From positions 1 through 5,664 of the forward strand of contig JAGLLQ010000607.1 in the NCBI GenBank assembly GCA_023140455.1: a stretch of DNA of 5,664 nucleotides. The letters run 5' to 3'. The translations under genes and the position numbers were made by a program. The notes under the pieces are model-generated. The model did no database searches, was not told the origin of the DNA, and saw only the letters and a program-made list of their open reading frames with translations. Shown here one piece after another: positions 1-5,512 of the stretch (its first letter is position 1; every line of letters starts with the position of its first letter). The DNA is from Desulfobacteraceae bacterium. Its GTDB lineage: Bacteria > Desulfobacterota > Desulfobacteria > Desulfobacterales > Desulfobacteraceae.

Positions 1-1
1 T

Positions 2-448
2 CATTCTGATGGAATGATTATTGATGGGAATGGATATTTGTTTGTGGGGCATTCTGGAGCCGGAAAATCAACAATTGCAACTATGCTTCAGGATAAAGGC
101 GAGATTCTTTGTGATGACCGTATGATTTTAAGGAAAGGGGATGATGGTTTTAAAATTCATGGGAACTGGAGCCATGGAACTTTACCAATTGTCTCTGCAT
201 CATCTGCTCATTTAAAAGCCATTTTCTTTTTAAATCAATCTGAAAAAAATATAATACAACCTGTGGACAAAACAATGGGAAAAGTTAAAACTCTTATTTC
301 TTGTATGGTAAAACCTTTGAACTCTGATAAATGGTGGAACTCAAACCTAAACCTTATAGAAGACATTGCAAAATCAATTCCTTGTTATAATTTATTTTTT
401 AATAAAAATGGAAAGATTTATGAAGAAATTATTGCCTTAAAGTTATAA
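2..448 (+). CDS. HPr-kinase-like protein, C-terminal part (5' end outside window)
   Basis: This is the C-terminal half of a P-loop kinase related to HPr serine kinase (HprK). The reading frame is open to the window edge, so the gene starts upstream; an ATG at 14 is internal, because the four codons before it (H-S-D-G) align with the conserved His region in the full-length paralogue at 3080-3919. Visible are a Walker A motif GHSGAGKST at residues 16-24 of the visible part and an LCDDR segment at 36-40, which matches the LVADDR acidic pair of HprK. A hydrophobic AIFFLNQS strand follows, as in the paralogue. The classical HprK substrate HPr is not encoded nearby. The gene lies 40 bases before a RiPP-like precursor gene on the same strand, so the peptide itself is a plausible substrate (inference from the paeninodin lasso system). 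The fold call is firm; the substrate is unknown. Confidence 0.85.
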   Translation, partial: HSDGMIIDGNGYLFVGHSGAGKSTIATMLQDKGEILCDDRMILRKGDDGFKIHGNWSHGTLPIVSASSAHLKAIFFLNQSEKNIIQPVDKTMGKVKTLISCMVKPLNSDKWWNSNLNLIEDIAKSIPCYNLFFNKNGKIYEEIIALKL

Positions 449-476
449 CATGTGATATTTTATATAAATATTCAGC

Positions 477-483
477 AAAGGAG
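477..483 (+). promoter_or_regulatory. Strong ribosome binding site of precursor peptide 1
   Basis: AAAGGAG lies five bases before the ATG at 489, a near-ideal Shine-Dalgarno sequence and spacing. It fixes the start of the 60-residue precursor. The following pqqD-like and radical SAM genes have no comparable site, so the peptide is probably made in excess over its enzymes. Confidence 0.75.
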
Positions 484-488
484 AAAAA

Positions 489-671
489 ATGAAAAAAGAA
501 TGGAAAAAACCTGTTATGACTATTGTTACTAAAAGCACTATAGAAGAGAATGTTTTAGTCATGTGTAAAGGCTGGGATTTTGTGGGACAACCTATGGCTG
601 GCCCTAGCGGGGAGGAACAGTGGTGTGGCTTTAGGTTAGGGGTACCATGCAATGCTGGGAACCCATCATAA
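489..671 (+). CDS. Putative RiPP precursor peptide 1 (60 aa, three Cys)
   Basis: This small gene probably encodes the substrate of the adjacent modification enzymes. The N-terminal leader-like part (about residues 1-25) begins MKKEWKKPV, a W-x-x-P-V pattern shared with precursor 2 at 3925-4110 and reminiscent of leader motifs bound by PqqD-type recognition domains, including the YxxP motif of lasso leaders. The C-terminal part is rich in Gly and Pro, with Cys at 26, 46 and 54 and Trp at 29 and 45, and ends in Ser60. There is no signal peptide or membrane segment. It has the strongest ribosome binding site of the left cassette and is followed within 23 bases by the pqqD-like gene. The three cysteines beside a SPASM-type radical SAM enzyme suggest thioether crosslinks, but Trp-based C-C crosslinks cannot be excluded. 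I cannot assign it to a named precursor family. The terminal Ser is a possible kinase target. Confidence 0.75.
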   Translation: MKKEWKKPVMTIVTKSTIEENVLVMCKGWDFVGQPMAGPSGEEQWCGFRLGVPCNAGNPS

Positions 672-694
672 TAATATTTAAGAATAAATTAACA

Positions 695-988
695 ATGAAA
701 ATTGACATTAGTAAAAAATACTTTAAAAACGAAGACGTTATTATCCGAGAAATAGAAGGTGAATACTTAATGATCCCTATTGCATCAGGTATAGGTGACA
801 TGGAAGATGAGATGTACACCTTAAACGAAACCGGAATTGCTATATGGGAGAAGTTATCTCCTGAAAAAACAATTGAGGCTATAGTGGACGAGCTTGGTCA
901 GGAATATGACGCTGATAAAAAAAAAATAACCACTGATGTTCTTGGATTGATTGAGGAATTGTTTAAGAGAAAAATTATATTTTGTTAA
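695..988 (+). CDS. PqqD-like peptide chaperone (RiPP recognition element) 1
   Basis: This 97-residue protein is of the PqqD family, whose members bind RiPP leader peptides and deliver them to a partner radical SAM enzyme. The family signature is visible as a YTLNETGIAIW segment at residues 41-51, preceded by an IREIEGEYLMIPI strand region and followed by a helical C-terminal half ending LIEELFKRKIIFC. I chose the ATG at 695; an in-frame upstream ATG at 647 would add 16 residues of unrelated sequence and lie inside the precursor gene. The chosen start gives an N-terminus that aligns with the paralogue at 5228-5512. No good Shine-Dalgarno sequence precedes it, so translation may depend on readthrough from the precursor gene 23 bases upstream. 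The radical SAM gene starts six bases downstream, which points to a functional pair. Confidence 0.85.
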   Translation: MKIDISKKYFKNEDVIIREIEGEYLMIPIASGIGDMEDEMYTLNETGIAIWEKLSPEKTIEAIVDELGQEYDADKKKITTDVLGLIEELFKRKIIFC

Positions 989-994
989 TAACAA

Positions 995-2125
995 ATGGCA
1001 AAGTCTAATAATATAACCTGCATTAACTTGCCTGATTCTGATTTAGTACAAAAACTCCGAGAGACTAAAACTCCTATATCCATTAGTTTTGAAATAACAG
1101 CGCGGTGTAATAACAATTGCAGGCATTGCTATATCAACCTTCCCGAAAATGATATCAATGCAAAATCCTTAGAGCTTGGGTTCCAAGAATTTAAAAACAT
1201 TGCAAACCAAGCTGTTAATAATGGTGTTTTATGGTGTTTAATTACAGGTGGTGAGCCTCTTTTACGAGAAGATTTTGCTGAAATCTATTTAATGCTTAGA
1301 AGAAAAGGTCTGCTTGTTTCTGTTTTTACTAATGCCTGCCTGATAAACAAAACTCATATAGAACTTTTTAAAAAATATAAACCAAGAGAGCTTGAAGTTA
1401 CAGTATATGGTGTTACTGAAGGAACCTATGAAAAAGTATCCGGAATAAAGGGAAGTTATAAGCAGTTTAGAGCTGGCCTTGATCTCTTGCTAACCAATGA
1501 TATTCCTGTTTCTTTAAAAGCCATGGCTATTCATTCTAATGTCCATGAAATTGAAGAGATTGCGGAATTCTGCTCAAAATATTCAAAGAAAAAATTCAAA
1601 TTTGATCCGTTTCTTCATAAAAGATATGACAGAAATGAAGAACGTAATAAAAAAATATTATCAGAACGCCTTAATAAAGACGAAATAATTGGCATTGAAC
1701 ATAATAACTTTGCAAGAAAAAATGCACTTGTTGAAGCTTGTGATCATCTTATTTTTGATCAGGATATCGACTCCATGGGTAGATTATTTACGTGCGGTAT
1801 ATTAAAAAATGGTTTTGAAATAAGTTATGATAGGAAACTAAGGCTTTGTTCTTCTCTGCTCCATCCTGATTATGTGCGTGATCTTAGAAAAATGTCCTTA
1901 ATGGATGCATACAATGAAATTGCTAAAAATATAATCAATGCCAGATCTGACAATAAAGAATTTTTAAATAAATGCAATAAATGCAAAATAATTAATCTTT
2001 GTTATTTTTGTCCTGCGAACTCATATCTTGAGACGGGCAAACTTGATACTCCTGTTGATTATTTCTGTGAGAATGCCCATGCAAGGCAAGAAGCAATTAT
2101 AGAATGGAAACAATTACAGGAATAA
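995..2125 (+). CDS. Radical SAM/SPASM peptide-modifying enzyme 1
   Basis: This 376-residue cytoplasmic iron-sulfur enzyme probably modifies precursor 1. The radical SAM CxxxCxxC motif is C38-NNN-C42-RH-C45, which binds the [4Fe-4S] cluster that cleaves S-adenosylmethionine; GGEP at 85-88 is the SAM-binding glycine-rich motif. The C-terminal SPASM domain, expected to hold auxiliary clusters, shows C267, C285, then C327-x2-C330-x5-C336-x2-C339, and C358. Length and architecture match peptide-maturing SPASM enzymes such as thioether-forming sactisynthases. It starts six bases after the pqqD-like gene and ends overlapping the opposite-strand S26-like gene by 12 bases. It is clearly homologous to the enzyme at 4141-5238 but well diverged, as expected if each serves its own peptide. 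The exact reaction (Cys thioether, C-C bond or other) cannot be read from sequence. Confidence 0.92.
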   Translation: MAKSNNITCINLPDSDLVQKLRETKTPISISFEITARCNNNCRHCYINLPENDINAKSLELGFQEFKNIANQAVNNGVLWCLITGGEPLLREDFAEIYLMLRRKGLLVSVFTNACLINKTHIELFKKYKPRELEVTVYGVTEGTYEKVSGIKGSYKQFRAGLDLLLTNDIPVSLKAMAIHSNVHEIEEIAEFCSKYSKKKFKFDPFLHKRYDRNEERNKKILSERLNKDEIIGIEHNNFARKNALVEACDHLIFDQDIDSMGRLFTCGILKNGFEISYDRKLRLCSSLLHPDYVRDLRKMSLMDAYNEIAKNIINARSDNKEFLNKCNKCKIINLCYFCPANSYLETGKLDTPVDYFCENAHARQEAIIEWKQLQE

Positions 2126-2602
2126 ATTTTTTATTTTAGCTTTTGCTGATCTTAGTATTGGAAGAATTAAATTATTTAAGAAGCTGCTTTTTGAAAGAAG
2201 AGCAATGATTTTTCCAAAAAGCCCTCCTCCGTACAAAACTCTCTTCCCATTTCTTTCTACTTTGCTTACCACACCAATGATTTGATCTTGCTCAAAAACG
2301 CCATCCCTTGATTTGTTATTATCCCCTTTAATTATAAACTTTCCCTGCTGTTTGCCTATAACTCTATGAACCAGAGTTGATTCTCTTTCTTGAAAAAAAG
2401 CTGCAACAATATCACCTGGTTCAGGTTTATTTAGGAATAAGGGAGAAACAGTTACAATGTCCATATTTTTTATAAAAGGAGACATACTGTGCCCTTTTGC
2501 CTGGAATCGAAAATCCACATTTTTTTCCAGAACAGCACGCATAAGATTGGTAAAATTTTTACCAGACAGCTTTAAATTATTGCTTGGATCATCATTCATC
2601 AT
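2114..2602 (-). CDS. Signal-peptidase-like S24/S26 family protein B
   Basis: This 162-residue protein resembles type I signal peptidases of the Ser/His (S26B, SipW/ER-type) branch. The nucleophile motif is GHSMSP with Ser39, the putative general base is His79 in LVHRVIG (in place of the Lys of classical bacterial LepB), and GDNN at 93-96 matches the late conserved GDN box. There is no N-terminal membrane anchor; the C-terminal 40 residues are moderately hydrophobic and basic and could attach to the membrane. It is the last gene of the right operon, 37 bases after the related gene at 2640-3083. Two adjacent ATG codons (2602 and 2599) are both possible starts; an in-frame stop lies just upstream. 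In this setting it may cleave RiPP leaders (inference); a more general processing role is possible. Confidence 0.82.
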   Translation of the reverse strand: MMNDDPSNNLKLSGKNFTNLMRAVLEKNVDFRFQAKGHSMSPFIKNMDIVTVSPLFLNKPEPGDIVAAFFQERESTLVHRVIGKQQGKFIIKGDNNKSRDGVFEQDQIIGVVSKVERNGKRVLYGGGLFGKIIALLSKSSFLNNLILPILRSAKAKIKNLFL

Positions 2603-2639
2603 AGCTGATTAGCATGTGCATAGTTTAAAGTCTACAACA

Positions 2640-3083
2640 CTATTTAAATACCCTACTCAATTTTGTAATTAATCTTTTTAAATAGTATATACCATATAAC
2701 CTTAAAAAATATGAAAGGTAGTTGAGTGTTCCTCTTTTTATAACCTGCCATTCATTGTCAGTCTTAATAGAGAGAATACGCCCGAGGACATAGCTTGCCG
2801 GAACTGCATTGTCAGGTATTGGATTGTTATCACCCCATGTTTGTATAAACAGTTTACCATTATGTTTAAAAATTCTTGCGACACGGTGGATTAAAGTTAA
2901 ATCAGAATCTGTTTTTATGAATACAATATCACCTAATTTTATTTGTTTTTCTCTAACAGGATATATGTTTATAAGTGCTCCTTCATTGATTACAGGAACC
3001 ATACTGTTGCCATAGGCATTTCTTGTTATGCAAGTTCCATTGTCAAGCAAATCTTTTTGCAGTTGTAAGGTCGATATATTCAT
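2640..3083 (-). CDS. Signal-peptidase-like S24/S26 family protein A
   Basis: This 147-residue paralogue of the neighbouring S26-like protein has the same Ser/His layout: GNSMVP with Ser27, His66 in LIHRVAR, and GDNN at 84-87. All putative catalytic positions are kept, so it looks active rather than decayed. It lacks an N-terminal transmembrane anchor; the C-terminus has an aromatic, basic segment (about residues 120-147, with LSYFLRLYGIYYL) that might be an amphipathic or membrane-associated helix. Its ATG overlaps the TGA of the upstream kinase-like gene as ATGA, implying translational coupling. Tandem retention of two copies fits either cleavage of two different precursors or a heterodimer; both are inference. 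S24 (LexA-like) membership is less likely, because the spacing to HR and GDN follows signal peptidases. Confidence 0.82.
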   Translation of the reverse strand: MNISTLQLQKDLLDNGTCITRNAYGNSMVPVINEGALINIYPVREKQIKLGDIVFIKTDSDLTLIHRVARIFKHNGKLFIQTWGDNNPIPDNAVPASYVLGRILSIKTDNEWQVIKRGTLNYLSYFLRLYGIYYLKRLITKLSRVFK

Positions 3084-3919
3084 AGGATATCTTTTATAAA
3101 AGAAATAACATTTGAGTCAGGTAAAAATTCTAAGTCGTAAACAGGAATATTTTTAACTATTTTATCAAATAACTGAATTGAATTCGGAATTGTTTCAGGT
3201 ATCCAGTTAAATGTTCTGGAACCATTTAGAATACTTCTGCTCGCCTCTTTTGCTGTTAGTTGACGGGCTTCATTCTTTTTTGAATGCCGAAGAAAAAAAA
3301 TTGCTGCGAGTGGACCTGAGAAAGGAACTACCGGTCCTATTACACCAGGCCAGGGTGTTGAGTGTGCATTTACAATCCCTTCTTTATAGCTGATATAAGG
3401 GTTTTCATCAGTCAGACAGGTACCGCCTTCCTGGCATACAAGGTTGCTAAGAGTGGTTTTCCCTGCTCCCGAATCTCCCATAAATAAAATATACATGCCA
3501 TCTAAAAAGACTAAAGCACCATGCATAAAACAATATTCCAAAATACTTGCCCGCCCCCACAAAATTATCAATAAAGCAGGGTCTCCATTAAAATTAATCT
3601 TACCTTCTCTTTGCAGACTGATATCTTTTTCCCAGGGAGACCACAATTTTATTTTAGTAAAATTTTTATTTGTCAGAAACTGACCTGATTGAATTTCAAA
3701 TAATAGATTTGAATCATATTGGTGCATTGTTAATGCTGCATTGGCAGGGGTGTCAACTATTTTATCAGGTACTATTTCAATAGTTGTTAGTTTACTTTTA
3801 TTAATATTATTTTCTGAAACTTGAAATAATTTTAATGTATCACTTACGGGAAGGTTACAATTTTCAGGAAATCGTAATTCAAAGAATAAATCTAAAATTT
3901 TAAAATAGTATTTTATCAA
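3080..3919 (-). CDS. HPr-kinase-like protein, full length
   Basis: This 279-residue protein has a C-terminal P-loop kinase domain like HprK. His133 in FMHGALV matches the conserved His just before the HprK P-loop, Walker A GDSGAGKTT is at 148-156, and LTDEN at 169-173 lies where HprK has its DDR acidic pair, so the second Asp is Glu here. An AIFFLRHS strand and a C-terminal helical tail follow, as in the partial paralogue at 2-448. The N-terminal 120 residues are not recognisable as the HprK regulatory domain. I used the TTG start at 3919, five bases after the stop of precursor 2, because the N-terminus beginning IKYYFKILDLFFEL fits this family's short strand opening and no better start exists before Met65. 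It may phosphorylate the modified peptide, as reported for the HprK homologue of the paeninodin lasso peptide; no such activity is shown here. Confidence 0.85.
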   Translation of the reverse strand: MIKYYFKILDLFFELRFPENCNLPVSDTLKLFQVSENNINKSKLTTIEIVPDKIVDTPANAALTMHQYDSNLLFEIQSGQFLTNKNFTKIKLWSPWEKDISLQREGKINFNGDPALLIILWGRASILEYCFMHGALVFLDGMYILFMGDSGAGKTTLSNLVCQEGGTCLTDENPYISYKEGIVNAHSTPWPGVIGPVVPFSGPLAAIFFLRHSKKNEARQLTAKEASRSILNGSRTFNWIPETIPNSIQLFDKIVKNIPVYDLEFLPDSNVISFIKDIL

Positions 3920-3924
3920 AGCTT

Positions 3925-4110
3925 CTAATATATTGAGCTTGTTGTTCCGCCCCTGTTCCAGCAGTTATTCGCAATTGGGGCCTGTAATCCACAGCCACCC
4001 TTATTATTATCAGGCGTACTGGAGCTTCCAAAACAGGCTGTGCCCATCTCTTTATCAAATTTAAGGACTATCTCCTCAATTACCGGAGTTTCCCACTTTT
4101 GTTTTTTCAT
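3925..4110 (-). CDS. Putative RiPP precursor peptide 2 (61 aa, three Cys)
   Basis: This is the probable substrate of the right cassette. It begins MKKQKWETPVIEE, sharing MKK and W-x-x-P-V with precursor 1. Cysteines are at 26, 40 and 50; the first is at the same residue number as in precursor 1 although the surrounding sequence differs. The C-terminal part is rich in Gly, Ser, Asn and Thr, contains a Ser triplet at 29-31 and a GGCG segment at 38-41, has Trp51 directly after Cys50, and ends TTSSIY. I chose the ATG at 4110, placed seven bases after AGGAG; a GTG at 4116 sits too close to that site. It lies 30 bases after the radical SAM gene and just before the kinase-like gene. Thioether crosslinking of the Cys residues is the leading guess. 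No known precursor family can be named from sequence alone. Confidence 0.75.
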   Translation of the reverse strand: MKKQKWETPVIEEIVLKFDKEMGTACFGSSSTPDNNKGGCGLQAPIANNCWNRGGTTSSIY

Positions 4111-4115
4111 TTCCA

Positions 4116-4125
4116 CTCTCCTCTC
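4116..4125 (-). promoter_or_regulatory. Strong ribosome binding site of precursor peptide 2
   Basis: The minus strand reads GAGAGGAGAG here, with the AGGAG core seven bases before the ATG at 4110. It selects that ATG over the GTG at 4116. Like precursor 1, the peptide gene has a better site than the enzyme genes around it. Confidence 0.75.
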
Positions 4126-4140
4126 ATATCTTGTTACCTT

Positions 4141-5238
4141 TTATGCTGGAATCGCAACCTTGTCACTGATACCGTATTTTTTAATTCTTGCTTTTGTAAG
4201 CTCGCATTTAAATGGAACCGGCCCACCTGTTGAACAGCCTTCGAGCAAAGCGAAAGCCGCACAATGGCTGCATATTTCTATTGCCTCACAAGCCTGGCAT
4301 GGTCCAGGCTGAAAAGGCAAATTATTTAACATTTCAGGGATTGCTATTTCCCAGCCTTCTTTAACACTGCCTTTTGTCAAATCATATTTTAAAATTTCCA
4401 ATGGTAGACATGGATGCATATAGCCATACGCATCTATGTGGGCTGTCCCATTTCCAACATTACAGCCAAATGCATAATTTTCCTTATTTATTTTAGATGG
4501 GGACCATCTATTAATAAGGTTTTGCATTTCGCTTTTTCTGACCGGATCAGTATTTTCCAATTCCACAATTTCCTCTGGAGATAATCGTATCTGCTGGGGG
4601 TTATTGCTAATTCCTGAAAATGCTCCAATAAGTTGCACATCCCAGCGAAATAGCTCACAATACTTTTTAGAAATCTCTTTTACAGCCTCAAAATCATGTA
4701 TATTAAGATGACTGAAAACTCCTTTAACCTCCAAAGGGATGCCGCAATCAGAAATCAAATCCAGTGCATCCATTACCTTTTTGAACATGCCTTTACATCC
4801 GGTCACTTTCTGATAAGTCTCTTCGGAAGCACCATACAGTGTGATGGATACCTCCAACGGTGTCCATTCAGAAAAAAAATCAACCATATTATTATTAATA
4901 AGGGAACCATTGGTAAATAAAGTTAATAAAAAACCCTTTTTCTTCAATTCTATCCACTTCTTTTTAAAATATGCTGAGAGTAATGGTTCTCCACCTGTTA
5001 TAGTTAGAAACAATACTCCTTCATCTGCAATTTGACCTGCAATTTTTTCCCATTCTTTATACTCTAATTCTTTTTCCGTTTTTCCGACAAATGACGGATT
5101 TGCGCAGAAACAATGTTTGCAGGCAAAATTACACTTGCGGGTCATCTCCATTGAAACGCCGCTGAGCTGCCTGATTTTCGTCTTTCTTATACGTTTAGCG
5201 AAATCTTTTATTGAACAAATCTGCAAATTACTCTCCAT
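4141..5238 (-). CDS. Radical SAM/SPASM peptide-modifying enzyme 2
   Basis: This is a 365-residue radical SAM enzyme with a SPASM domain, paralogous to the one at 995-2125. In numbering from the chosen ATG, the SAM-cluster cysteines are C36-NFA-C40-KH-C43 and the glycine-rich motif GGEP is at 82-85. SPASM cysteines are C259, C277, C314-x2-C317-x5-C323-x2-C326 and C345, with an extra Cys at 335 not found in enzyme 1. I chose the ATG at 5238, which overlaps the last 11 bases of the pqqD-like gene; a TTG at 5250 in frame would add four residues but is a weaker codon. The overlap implies translational coupling and a stoichiometric pair with the PqqD-like protein. The likely substrate is precursor 2, encoded 30 bases downstream. 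The bond it makes is unknown; Cys thioether formation is the simplest hypothesis. Confidence 0.92.
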   Translation of the reverse strand: MESNLQICSIKDFAKRIRKTKIRQLSGVSMEMTRKCNFACKHCFCANPSFVGKTEKELEYKEWEKIAGQIADEGVLFLTITGGEPLLSAYFKKKWIELKKKGFLLTLFTNGSLINNNMVDFFSEWTPLEVSITLYGASEETYQKVTGCKGMFKKVMDALDLISDCGIPLEVKGVFSHLNIHDFEAVKEISKKYCELFRWDVQLIGAFSGISNNPQQIRLSPEEIVELENTDPVRKSEMQNLINRWSPSKINKENYAFGCNVGNGTAHIDAYGYMHPCLPLEILKYDLTKGSVKEGWEIAIPEMLNNLPFQPGPCQACEAIEICSHCAAFALLEGCSTGGPVPFKCELTKARIKKYGISDKVAIPA

Positions 5239-5512
5239 ATATATCAACAAAATTAATTTTCTGAAGATCTCTTACCAGTTTTTTAACCTCTGCTTTTATT
5301 ATATTATGTGGACCTGAAAAATTGTTTTCAAGCTCTTCTACCAGTTGATCAAATGTTTTAGGGGTCGCAAGAAGTGTCCAAACAGATGCAGCAGTATTAT
5401 TTAATGTATATATTTTTTGGATCTCAACACCAGTCTGATTCAAGGGAATTAAAACTTTTTCGTCCCCGATTGATCGCATAATTATATTTTGGTTTTGCCT
5501 GTATTGGTTCAT
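5228..5512 (-). CDS. PqqD-like peptide chaperone (RiPP recognition element) 2
   Basis: This 94-residue PqqD-family protein is presumed to bind the leader of precursor 2 and pass it to the radical SAM enzyme whose gene overlaps its 3' end. The family pattern is seen as YTLNNTAASVW at residues 35-45, after an IIMRSIGDEKVLIPL strand region and before a helical half containing FDQLVEELENNF. The ATG at 5512 is preferred over a GTG at 5542: it follows a Shine-Dalgarno-like AGGGTGG at a five-base spacing, and it gives an N-terminus matching the paralogue at 695-988. It is the first gene of the six-gene minus-strand operon visible here, so the operon promoter should lie just upstream. Confidence 0.86.
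   Translation of the reverse strand: MNQYRQNQNIIMRSIGDEKVLIPLNQTGVEIQKIYTLNNTAASVWTLLATPKTFDQLVEELENNFSGPHNIIKAEVKKLVRDLQKINFVDIYGE

Follow-up and report, generated by a model that had tools for sequence, protein, structure and literature searches.

Two convergent radical SAM RiPP cassettes on one Desulfobacteraceae contig that may belong to a class with a kinase for the last residue of the peptide

We analysed a window of 5,664 nt, apparently an entire contig (5664), from an uncultured bacterium that is probably a sulfate reducer. ORF calls and profile searches reveal ten genes arranged as two convergent, diverged cassettes, A and B, each of which contains a precursor, a PqqD-like protein, a radical SAM enzyme (rSAM), an HprK-like kinase (HK) and an S26 protease. 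HK_A, precursor A, PqqD_A and rSAM_A lie on the plus strand and the remaining six genes on the minus strand. Because the window is apparently the whole contig, HK_A is seen in part only.

2..448, plus strand: HK_A, HprK/ScmC-like kinase, C-terminal half, truncated at its 5′ end by the contig boundary; retains His, P-loop GHSGAGKS and DD
489..671, plus strand: precursor A, 60 aa; WxxP leader, EENVL, CK; a core that carries Cys at −7 and ends in Ser; family profile E 2e-14
695..988, plus strand: PqqD_A, discrete PqqD-like leader-binding (RRE) protein; PF05402 6e-16
995..2125, plus strand: rSAM_A, radical SAM enzyme with CX3CX2C and conserved C-terminal cysteines; PF04055 4e-20
2114..2602, minus strand: S26_1, S24/S26-type protease (GxSMxP, HR), convergent with rSAM_A, cassette A; PF00717 1.4e-8
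2640..3083, minus strand: S26_2, another S24/S26-type protease, closing cassette B; PF00717 2.4e-6, gene order matching B-like loci
3080..3919, minus strand: HK_B, HprK/PEPCK-fold kinase, P-loop GDSGAGKT, start uncertain (TTG 3919); motif and predicted structure
3925..4116, minus strand: precursor B, 63 aa from GTG 4116 (ATG 4110 likelier); Cys-rich core behind a WxxP leader, C-terminus SSIY; 24.6 bits to the Y-type leader profile
4141..5250, minus strand: rSAM_B, radical SAM enzyme whose C-terminus resembles SPASM, starting at TTG 5250 or ATG 5238; PF04055 5e-21
5228..5512, minus strand: PqqD_B, discrete PqqD-like leader-binding (RRE) protein that heads cassette B; PF05402 1.5e-11

A preliminary description had read the locus as two convergent, diverged RiPP cassettes with dedicated enzymes, and the ORF calls and Pfam searches support this, both halves looking like such cassettes and every gene it named being present in the orientation it gave. 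In both cassettes the PqqD, Radical_SAM and Peptidase_S24 matches exceed the curated Pfam cut-offs, PF05402 being above its gathering score for PqqD_A and PqqD_B, and Hpr_kinase_C is sub-threshold for the HprK-like pair (7e-4 and 3e-3). The CX3CX2C motif and the C-terminal cysteines are invariant in the 30-row alignments of rSAM_A and of rSAM_B; the Pfam SPASM model (PF13186) is sub-threshold in rSAM_B and gives no match in rSAM_A, the C-terminal cysteines nonetheless being conserved. Searching the window against Rfam and for tRNAs found nothing, and its promoter- and terminator-like matches are at chance level. A prokaryotic viperin was rejected: the PADLOC pVip profiles hit rSAM_A and rSAM_B, yet these hits span part of the rSAM domain only, and both enzymes sit among RiPP genes. 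Plasmid cargo was discarded with all 243 matching plasmid records below 60% identity, and phage cargo was set aside after a viral-contig scan using the rSAM_B alignment, which gave 32 loci, the top one 25% identical.

The paired proteins of the two cassettes are 32% (rSAM), 31% (PqqD), 29% (HprK) and 28% (S26) identical, and a pairwise comparison of the two precursors detects no significant similarity. Because the paired proteins share just 28–32% identity, a recent duplication is ruled out, in agreement with the preliminary description. Trees of S26, HK and PqqD, that of HK read in part, have long branches and weak supports and serve as hints only.

A sister Desulfobacteraceae contig (genome G894) carries the A block, with 78–81% DNA identity over positions 1–538 and 689–2576 and differences beyond. 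Specifically, rSAM_A and PqqD_A are 79% and 80% identical to their sister counterparts, and HK_A is 78% identical to a 300-aa sister frame; A is fully syntenic there. In the sister a further rSAM (12756–13952) lies directly upstream of the kinase (14010–14912), and such a gene is predicted upstream of HK_A as well. S26_1 is 69% identical to a sister counterpart in the same convergent place, and 43% identical to A-type S26. Since the sister's A block includes this S26, S26_1 (2114–2602) belongs to cassette A despite lying on the strand of B; this synteny rules out that both S26 genes are part of B and corrects the earlier assignment to one S26 gene per cassette. Compared with the sister, the A enzyme genes are 67–80% identical with dN/dS of 0.06–0.19, and the leader of precursor A is 81% identical (dN/dS 0.08) and its core 44% (dN/dS 0.60), values that are rough, with silent sites near saturation.

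Among 79 A-type loci, PqqD is present in 73, S26 in 68, the HprK-like protein in 54 and a recognisable precursor in 60, the 19 loci without a precursor match being kept in the total; the counts rest on frames read from stop to stop and on profiles made from the loci themselves, and since many loci are short, absences are weak evidence. With S26 and HprK-like proteins this frequent, the earlier view that their combination is unusual does not hold. The rSAM and the kinase occupy a single frame in 37 of the 79 loci, a nucleotidyltransferase family occurs in 29 (PF14907 in the two members tested) and an ABC transporter family in 31. The motif His, GxxxxGK[ST], DD is found in 49 of 63 HK hits, HK_A included; the other 14 fail this simple test, some being fragments. 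One A-type kinase (L029) has no Pfam match at 1e-3, and the Ser/His pattern is not matched by 15 of 78 S26 hits.

The family profile assigns 92 members to the precursor A family, from 60 of the 79 loci and the window. The leader is conserved and the core changes fast. The C-terminal residue is Ser in 79 members and Thr in seven, so that 86 of 92 end in Ser/Thr, compared with a background of 15% in 8,484 ORFs of 45–110 aa, and Cys is found at −7 in 74. The near-universal terminal Ser/Thr of A-type precursors is described here for the first time.

Cassette A (1–2602) represents what we term the W-type: kinase, precursor, RRE and rSAM, then a convergent S26. In the mechanism that we propose, the PqqD-like protein would bind the WxxP leader of precursor A; the RREs of lasso systems read a YxxP motif. 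rSAM_A would cross-link the Cys-rich core, and the HprK-like kinase would phosphorylate the hydroxyl of the C-terminal Ser. The S26 protease, a putative leader peptidase, a role we consider rather more probable than not, would remove the leader, and an ABC transporter, whose gene is taken from relatives and is absent from the window, would export the product.

Terminal-Ser phosphorylation is suggested by a kinase motif that is intact, by a terminal Ser that is near-universal and by precedents from lasso peptides; we give it an even chance. A review reports that the C-terminal Ser of lasso precursors is phosphorylated by homologues of HPr kinase, and that a nucleotidyltransferase adds a hexose to the phosphorylated peptide (PMC8498205). 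The residues named for the lasso kinase BsfK are those of the His/P-loop/DD motif (PMC10368454).

The HprK-like proteins could instead be regulators or act on another molecule, with the terminal Ser serving export, protease recognition or the rSAM reaction. This reading, which we hold to be unlikely though worth weighing, gains from the sub-threshold Pfam HprK score, from ScmC being the best NCBIfam match of HK_A, from the acidic pair of HK_B, which is D-E instead of D-D, and from the terminal Ser carried by seven of nine precursors from loci of at least 10 kb without a detected HK. Because the terminal Ser persists in these loci, co-occurrence leaves the link between Ser and kinase unproven, and a per-locus test of terminal Ser against HK presence gave no clear link. 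Against a role other than peptide kinase, the AlphaFold model of HK_B (pLDDT 82.7) matches HprK/P and PEPCK structures, the catalytic motif of HK_A is intact, kinase and rSAM share one frame in the 37 loci above, and the lasso precedents combine the same kind of kinase with a terminal Ser.

Cassette B (2640–5512) has the gene order PqqD-rSAM-precursor-kinase-S26 and is a divergent relative of a five-gene cassette of this order, which we term the Y-type. In 33 B-like loci of ~4 kb each, with five duplicate loci left out, PqqD is present in 30, the precursor in 29, HprK in 25 and S26 in 16; the full order is found in 10, and 10 more lack S26 alone. The B-like rSAMs from genomes are 28–39% identical to rSAM_B. 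Against a leader profile built without it, precursor B scores 24.6 bits, which none of 17,161 background ORFs and none of 2,000 shuffles reached; the 30 Y-type precursors still count one probably spurious member (L184, a row ending in V). Against the A-type precursor profile it scores 9.6 bits (E 0.98), the background level. Precursor B has neither the CK nor the terminal Ser, its last residue being Tyr, and a protein search returned one relative (P0241), 95% identical. Cassette B would follow the same steps as A up to the kinase step; terminal phosphorylation is doubtful here, because precursor B lacks a terminal Ser and HK_B has D-E for D-D.

These same departures, the missing CK and terminal Ser and the D-E pair, together with the long branches of PqqD_B and HK_B in the trees, would also fit a cassette in decay, with rSAM_B or HK_B inactive and precursor B a drifting remnant. 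We consider decay improbable, as the genes of B all have open frames and stand close together, rSAM_B retains the invariant cysteines, precursor B has its 95% identical relative, and relatives of rSAM_B exist at 81% and 86% identity (the 86% one partial).

A-type rSAMs occur in 15 of 340 Desulfobacterales genomes and B-like rSAMs in at most 30 of 340 (36 genomes minus six whose sole place is an A-type rSAM; 20 read in context). Both types occur together in one of 340, with ~1.3 expected by chance, the counts coming from two draws of 340 that possibly do not hold identical genomes. Misses are possible because about five candidates were scored per genome, both here and in the scans of 395 and 291 genomes for rSAM_B. 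Close rSAM_B orthologues, sought with strict cut-offs and few candidates per genome, were found in 0 of 395, 0 of 142 and 0 of 291 genomes; B-like relatives emerged once the cut-off was loosened. In the family of genome G022, close rSAM_A relatives were found in G022 itself alone (one of 24). A B-type profile search of the sister genome (5.7 Mb, possibly incomplete) returned just the two rSAMs of its A cassette. A second cassette of another kind adjoins the A-type one in five of the 79 loci (L016, L020, L048, L067 and L073, from a reading of the table), so the adjacency of A and B may not be mere accident.

That A and B each supply one half of a two-peptide product, a proposal of the preliminary description, is very improbable: their tail-to-tail placement on one contig, the five second cassettes and two partial Desulfobacteraceae proteins that perhaps come from one MAG (P0016, 87% identical to rSAM_A, and P0141, 86% to rSAM_B) speak for it, but the sister genome has A and shows no B, the two types meet about as often as chance predicts, and the one contig size (2068; P0007 and P0218) that the 17 next closest rSAM_A relatives share with the 120 rSAM_B relatives listed leaves no room for two genes of this kind. 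Of the refuting observations named in the preliminary description, the independent occurrence of the halves is seen, whereas the small ORFs are conserved.

There is no fixed partnership between the two types, and the window very probably holds two independent RiPP cassettes. The best explanation overall, which we regard as probable, is that the two tail-to-tail cassettes are of one superclass, with A working as proposed. Such a superclass would join an rSAM cross-linking module to a lasso-type kinase/nucleotidyltransferase pair, with some rSAM-kinase fusions, and its products would have a CX5S tail whose C-terminal Ser is phosphorylated or perhaps phosphoglycosylated; we advance this picture tentatively, at somewhat below even likelihood.

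The closest known systems are the SynChlorMet cassettes, whose cut-offs are not reached, and the phosphorylated lasso peptides. SynChlorMet (Scm, NCBIfam TIGR04248–TIGR04251) has the same kinds of genes: HK_A has its best NCBIfam match in ScmC, and the ScmD, ScmE and ScmF models also match the PqqD and rSAM proteins, with scores far under the curated cut-offs (ScmC 41.4 of 125, ScmD 25.3 of 100, the rSAM models 81 of 400 and 71 of 400). Both PqqD proteins find their best NCBIfam match in a lasso PqqD model, likewise below its cut-off (45.6 and 33.5 of 80). Phosphorylated and phosphoglycosylated lasso peptides (paeninodin, pseudomycoidin; kinase K, nucleotidyltransferase N, split RRE B1) have in common with the window a discrete PqqD-like RRE, a [YW]xxP leader, an HprK-like kinase and a C-terminal Ser, and with its relatives a nucleotidyltransferase and an ABC transporter. 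In contrast to lasso systems, the window has rSAM and S26 enzymes instead and a Cys-rich core; no Pfam match to a lasso cyclase or B2 leader peptidase was found among the ten proteins of this short contig. The maturation of sactipeptides and ranthipeptides, marked by Cys thioethers to an alpha or a beta/gamma carbon, respectively, likewise places an rSAM/SPASM enzyme beside a precursor with a Cys-rich core, and the PapB and SkfB models match rSAM_B and AlbA matches rSAM_A, with scores far below the cut-offs; we know of no kinase and S26 partner in these families. GeoRSP and PQQ systems also pair a separate PqqD-like chaperone with an rSAM/SPASM enzyme, without their cut-offs being reached, and have a different precursor and partners.

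Both cassettes probably sit in a large, little-studied class that may pair an unusual cross-linking enzyme with a kinase acting on the last residue of the peptide. Our literature search found no description of the rSAM_A class, and solved structures match it at the superfamily level only, the best being SkfB. If the proposal is true, terminal phosphorylation would be a RiPP tailoring module common beyond lasso peptides; the conserved C-terminal Ser makes a simple prediction about the chemistry of the HprK-like protein, and fusions of rSAM and kinase are candidates for a one-protein test. rSAM_A has very many relatives: with distant rSAMs counted, 3,598 proteins match at E ≤ 0.001, the best 120 of which are all at least 51% identical. 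By record titles, members of the class occur in Desulfobacterota, Omnitrophota, Aminicenantes, Chlorobiaceae, Actinomycetota and methanogenic archaea.

Gene calling and Pfam place ten genes in the window, whose 5,664 bases appear to be the entire contig:

2–448, plus strand: HprK-like kinase HK_A (C-terminal half only)
next, plus strand: precursor A (60 aa)
next, plus strand: PqqD-like protein PqqD_A
next, plus strand: radical SAM enzyme rSAM_A
first of the minus-strand genes: PqqD-like protein PqqD_B
next, minus strand: radical SAM enzyme rSAM_B
next, minus strand: precursor (63 aa as listed)
3080–3919, minus strand: HprK-like kinase HK_B
2640–3083, minus strand: S24/S26-type protease S26_2
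2114–2602, minus strand: S24/S26-type protease S26_1

The two facing cassettes and named genes of the preliminary description are borne out, with one boundary corrected. On sequence comparison, cassette A is the block 1–2602, S26_1 included, as indicated by sister contig G894:C634 (23,219 bases), which carries an rSAM, a kinase, a precursor, a PqqD, the rSAM_A counterpart and then an S26 convergent to it, and by the DNA alignment to this contig, which spans window positions 1–538 and 689–2576 and ends there. Left unaligned are positions 539–688, which hold the latter half of the leader, then the core and the gap that follows it. Protein identities to the sister are 78% (HK_A), 80% (PqqD), 79% (rSAM_A) and 69% (S26_1). 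The sister locus also has an integrase-core (transposase-like) gene upstream of the cassette (L157:5472–6659) and an additional minus-strand precursor (L157:11088–11357). A B-type profile search of the sister genome (5.7 Mb, possibly incomplete) matched only the two rSAMs of its A cassette.

rSAM_A and rSAM_B alike contain the CX3CX2C cluster as well as C-terminal cysteines that are conserved, and paired A and B proteins share 28–32% identity. Of the listed rSAM_A relatives that have a named organism, the nearest belong to Desulfobacteraceae MAGs (P0006, P0016). From 162 candidates in a scan of genome contigs, the best 79 form the A-type set; their rSAM_A relatives (47–56% identity) span many bacterial phyla and archaea. 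These loci contain PqqD (73), S26 (68), an HprK-like kinase (54) and a family precursor (60), and 68 have at least two rSAM frames. Precursor A, a predicted RiPP precursor, falls in a 92-member family (E 2e-14) with a WxxP leader, an EExVL stretch, CK and a Cys-rich core. Against the sister, its leader is 81% identical with dN/dS 0.08 and its core 44% with dN/dS 0.60 (27 codons each, silent sites near saturation, hence rough), compared with 0.06–0.19 for the enzyme genes. Several precursors can share a locus, with four in L007 (2310–9913), where PqqD-S26 pairs are duplicated, and five in L061 (14886–16737).

A joint A+B system, one reading of the preliminary description, is not supported. In the co-occurrence counts (INDEPENDENCE; about five candidates scored per genome), A-type rSAMs occur in 15 of 340 Desulfobacterales genomes and B-like rSAMs in at most 30, a count that leaves out six genomes whose sole match is A-type; one genome (G042) has both, versus 1.3 expected. 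A second cassette adjoins the A-type one in 5/79 loci (L016, L020, L048, L067, L073). Such cassettes thus sometimes share islands, and no fixed partner was seen. The nearest parallel to the window layout is the convergent second cassette at L048:12223–16857 (PqqD twice, rSAM twice, kinase, S26), with a YxKP Cys-rich frame between kinase and S26. The B-like rSAMs of L197 and L198 have an S26 but show neither a PqqD nor a kinase or precursor in their vicinity, and may belong to a different system.

The point of interest is the class itself. The literature searched, mostly from outside the subscription journals, yielded no account of a RiPP system that pairs an rSAM with an HprK-like kinase. SynChlorMet is the nearest named system, and the window proteins score below its NCBIfam cut-offs. 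Phosphorylated lasso peptides follow the same kinase-RRE-leader logic as the window cassettes, and the lasso PqqD model is the best match of PqqD_A and PqqD_B, under its cut-off. The lasso literature reports an HPr kinase in clusters of anaerobes (2014 mining paper, PMC4289311), a kinase, BsfK, that targets Ser3 of its core and depends on a His, a Gly, a Lys, a Ser and two Asp residues in a motif of the kind found in HK_A (PMC10368454), earlier kinases that phosphorylate the C-terminal Ser (PMC10368454; review PMC8498205), and hexose addition to the phosphorylated peptide by a nucleotidyltransferase (PMC8498205).

With these precedents, we propose the HprK-like kinase as a candidate for terminal phosphorylation of A-type precursors. 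Specifically, 79/92 family members end in Ser and 7/92 in Thr, against a background of 15% Ser/Thr ends in 8,484 ORFs of 45–110 aa, and the full kinase motif (His, GxxxxGK[ST], DD) is present in 49/63 kinase hits, including HK_A. In addition, rSAM and kinase share one open frame in 37/79 A-type loci, and nucleotidyltransferase (PF14907 in two members tested) and ABC transporter families occur in 29 and 31. Against the proposal, terminal Ser is kept in 7/9 precursors of long loci without a detected kinase.

Precursor A ends in C-N-A-G-N-P-S, and Cys occupies position −7 in 74/92 members. The rSAM-kinase frames are mostly ~630–730 aa (e.g. L005:5065–7059, L016:11128–13134, L061:5308–7356). Precursors without a terminal Ser include L055:8312–8848, with no kinase seen in that locus's 16.7 kb, and L056:2522–2761, in a locus whose two kinases have CEDR instead of CDDR and whose second precursor ends in Ser.
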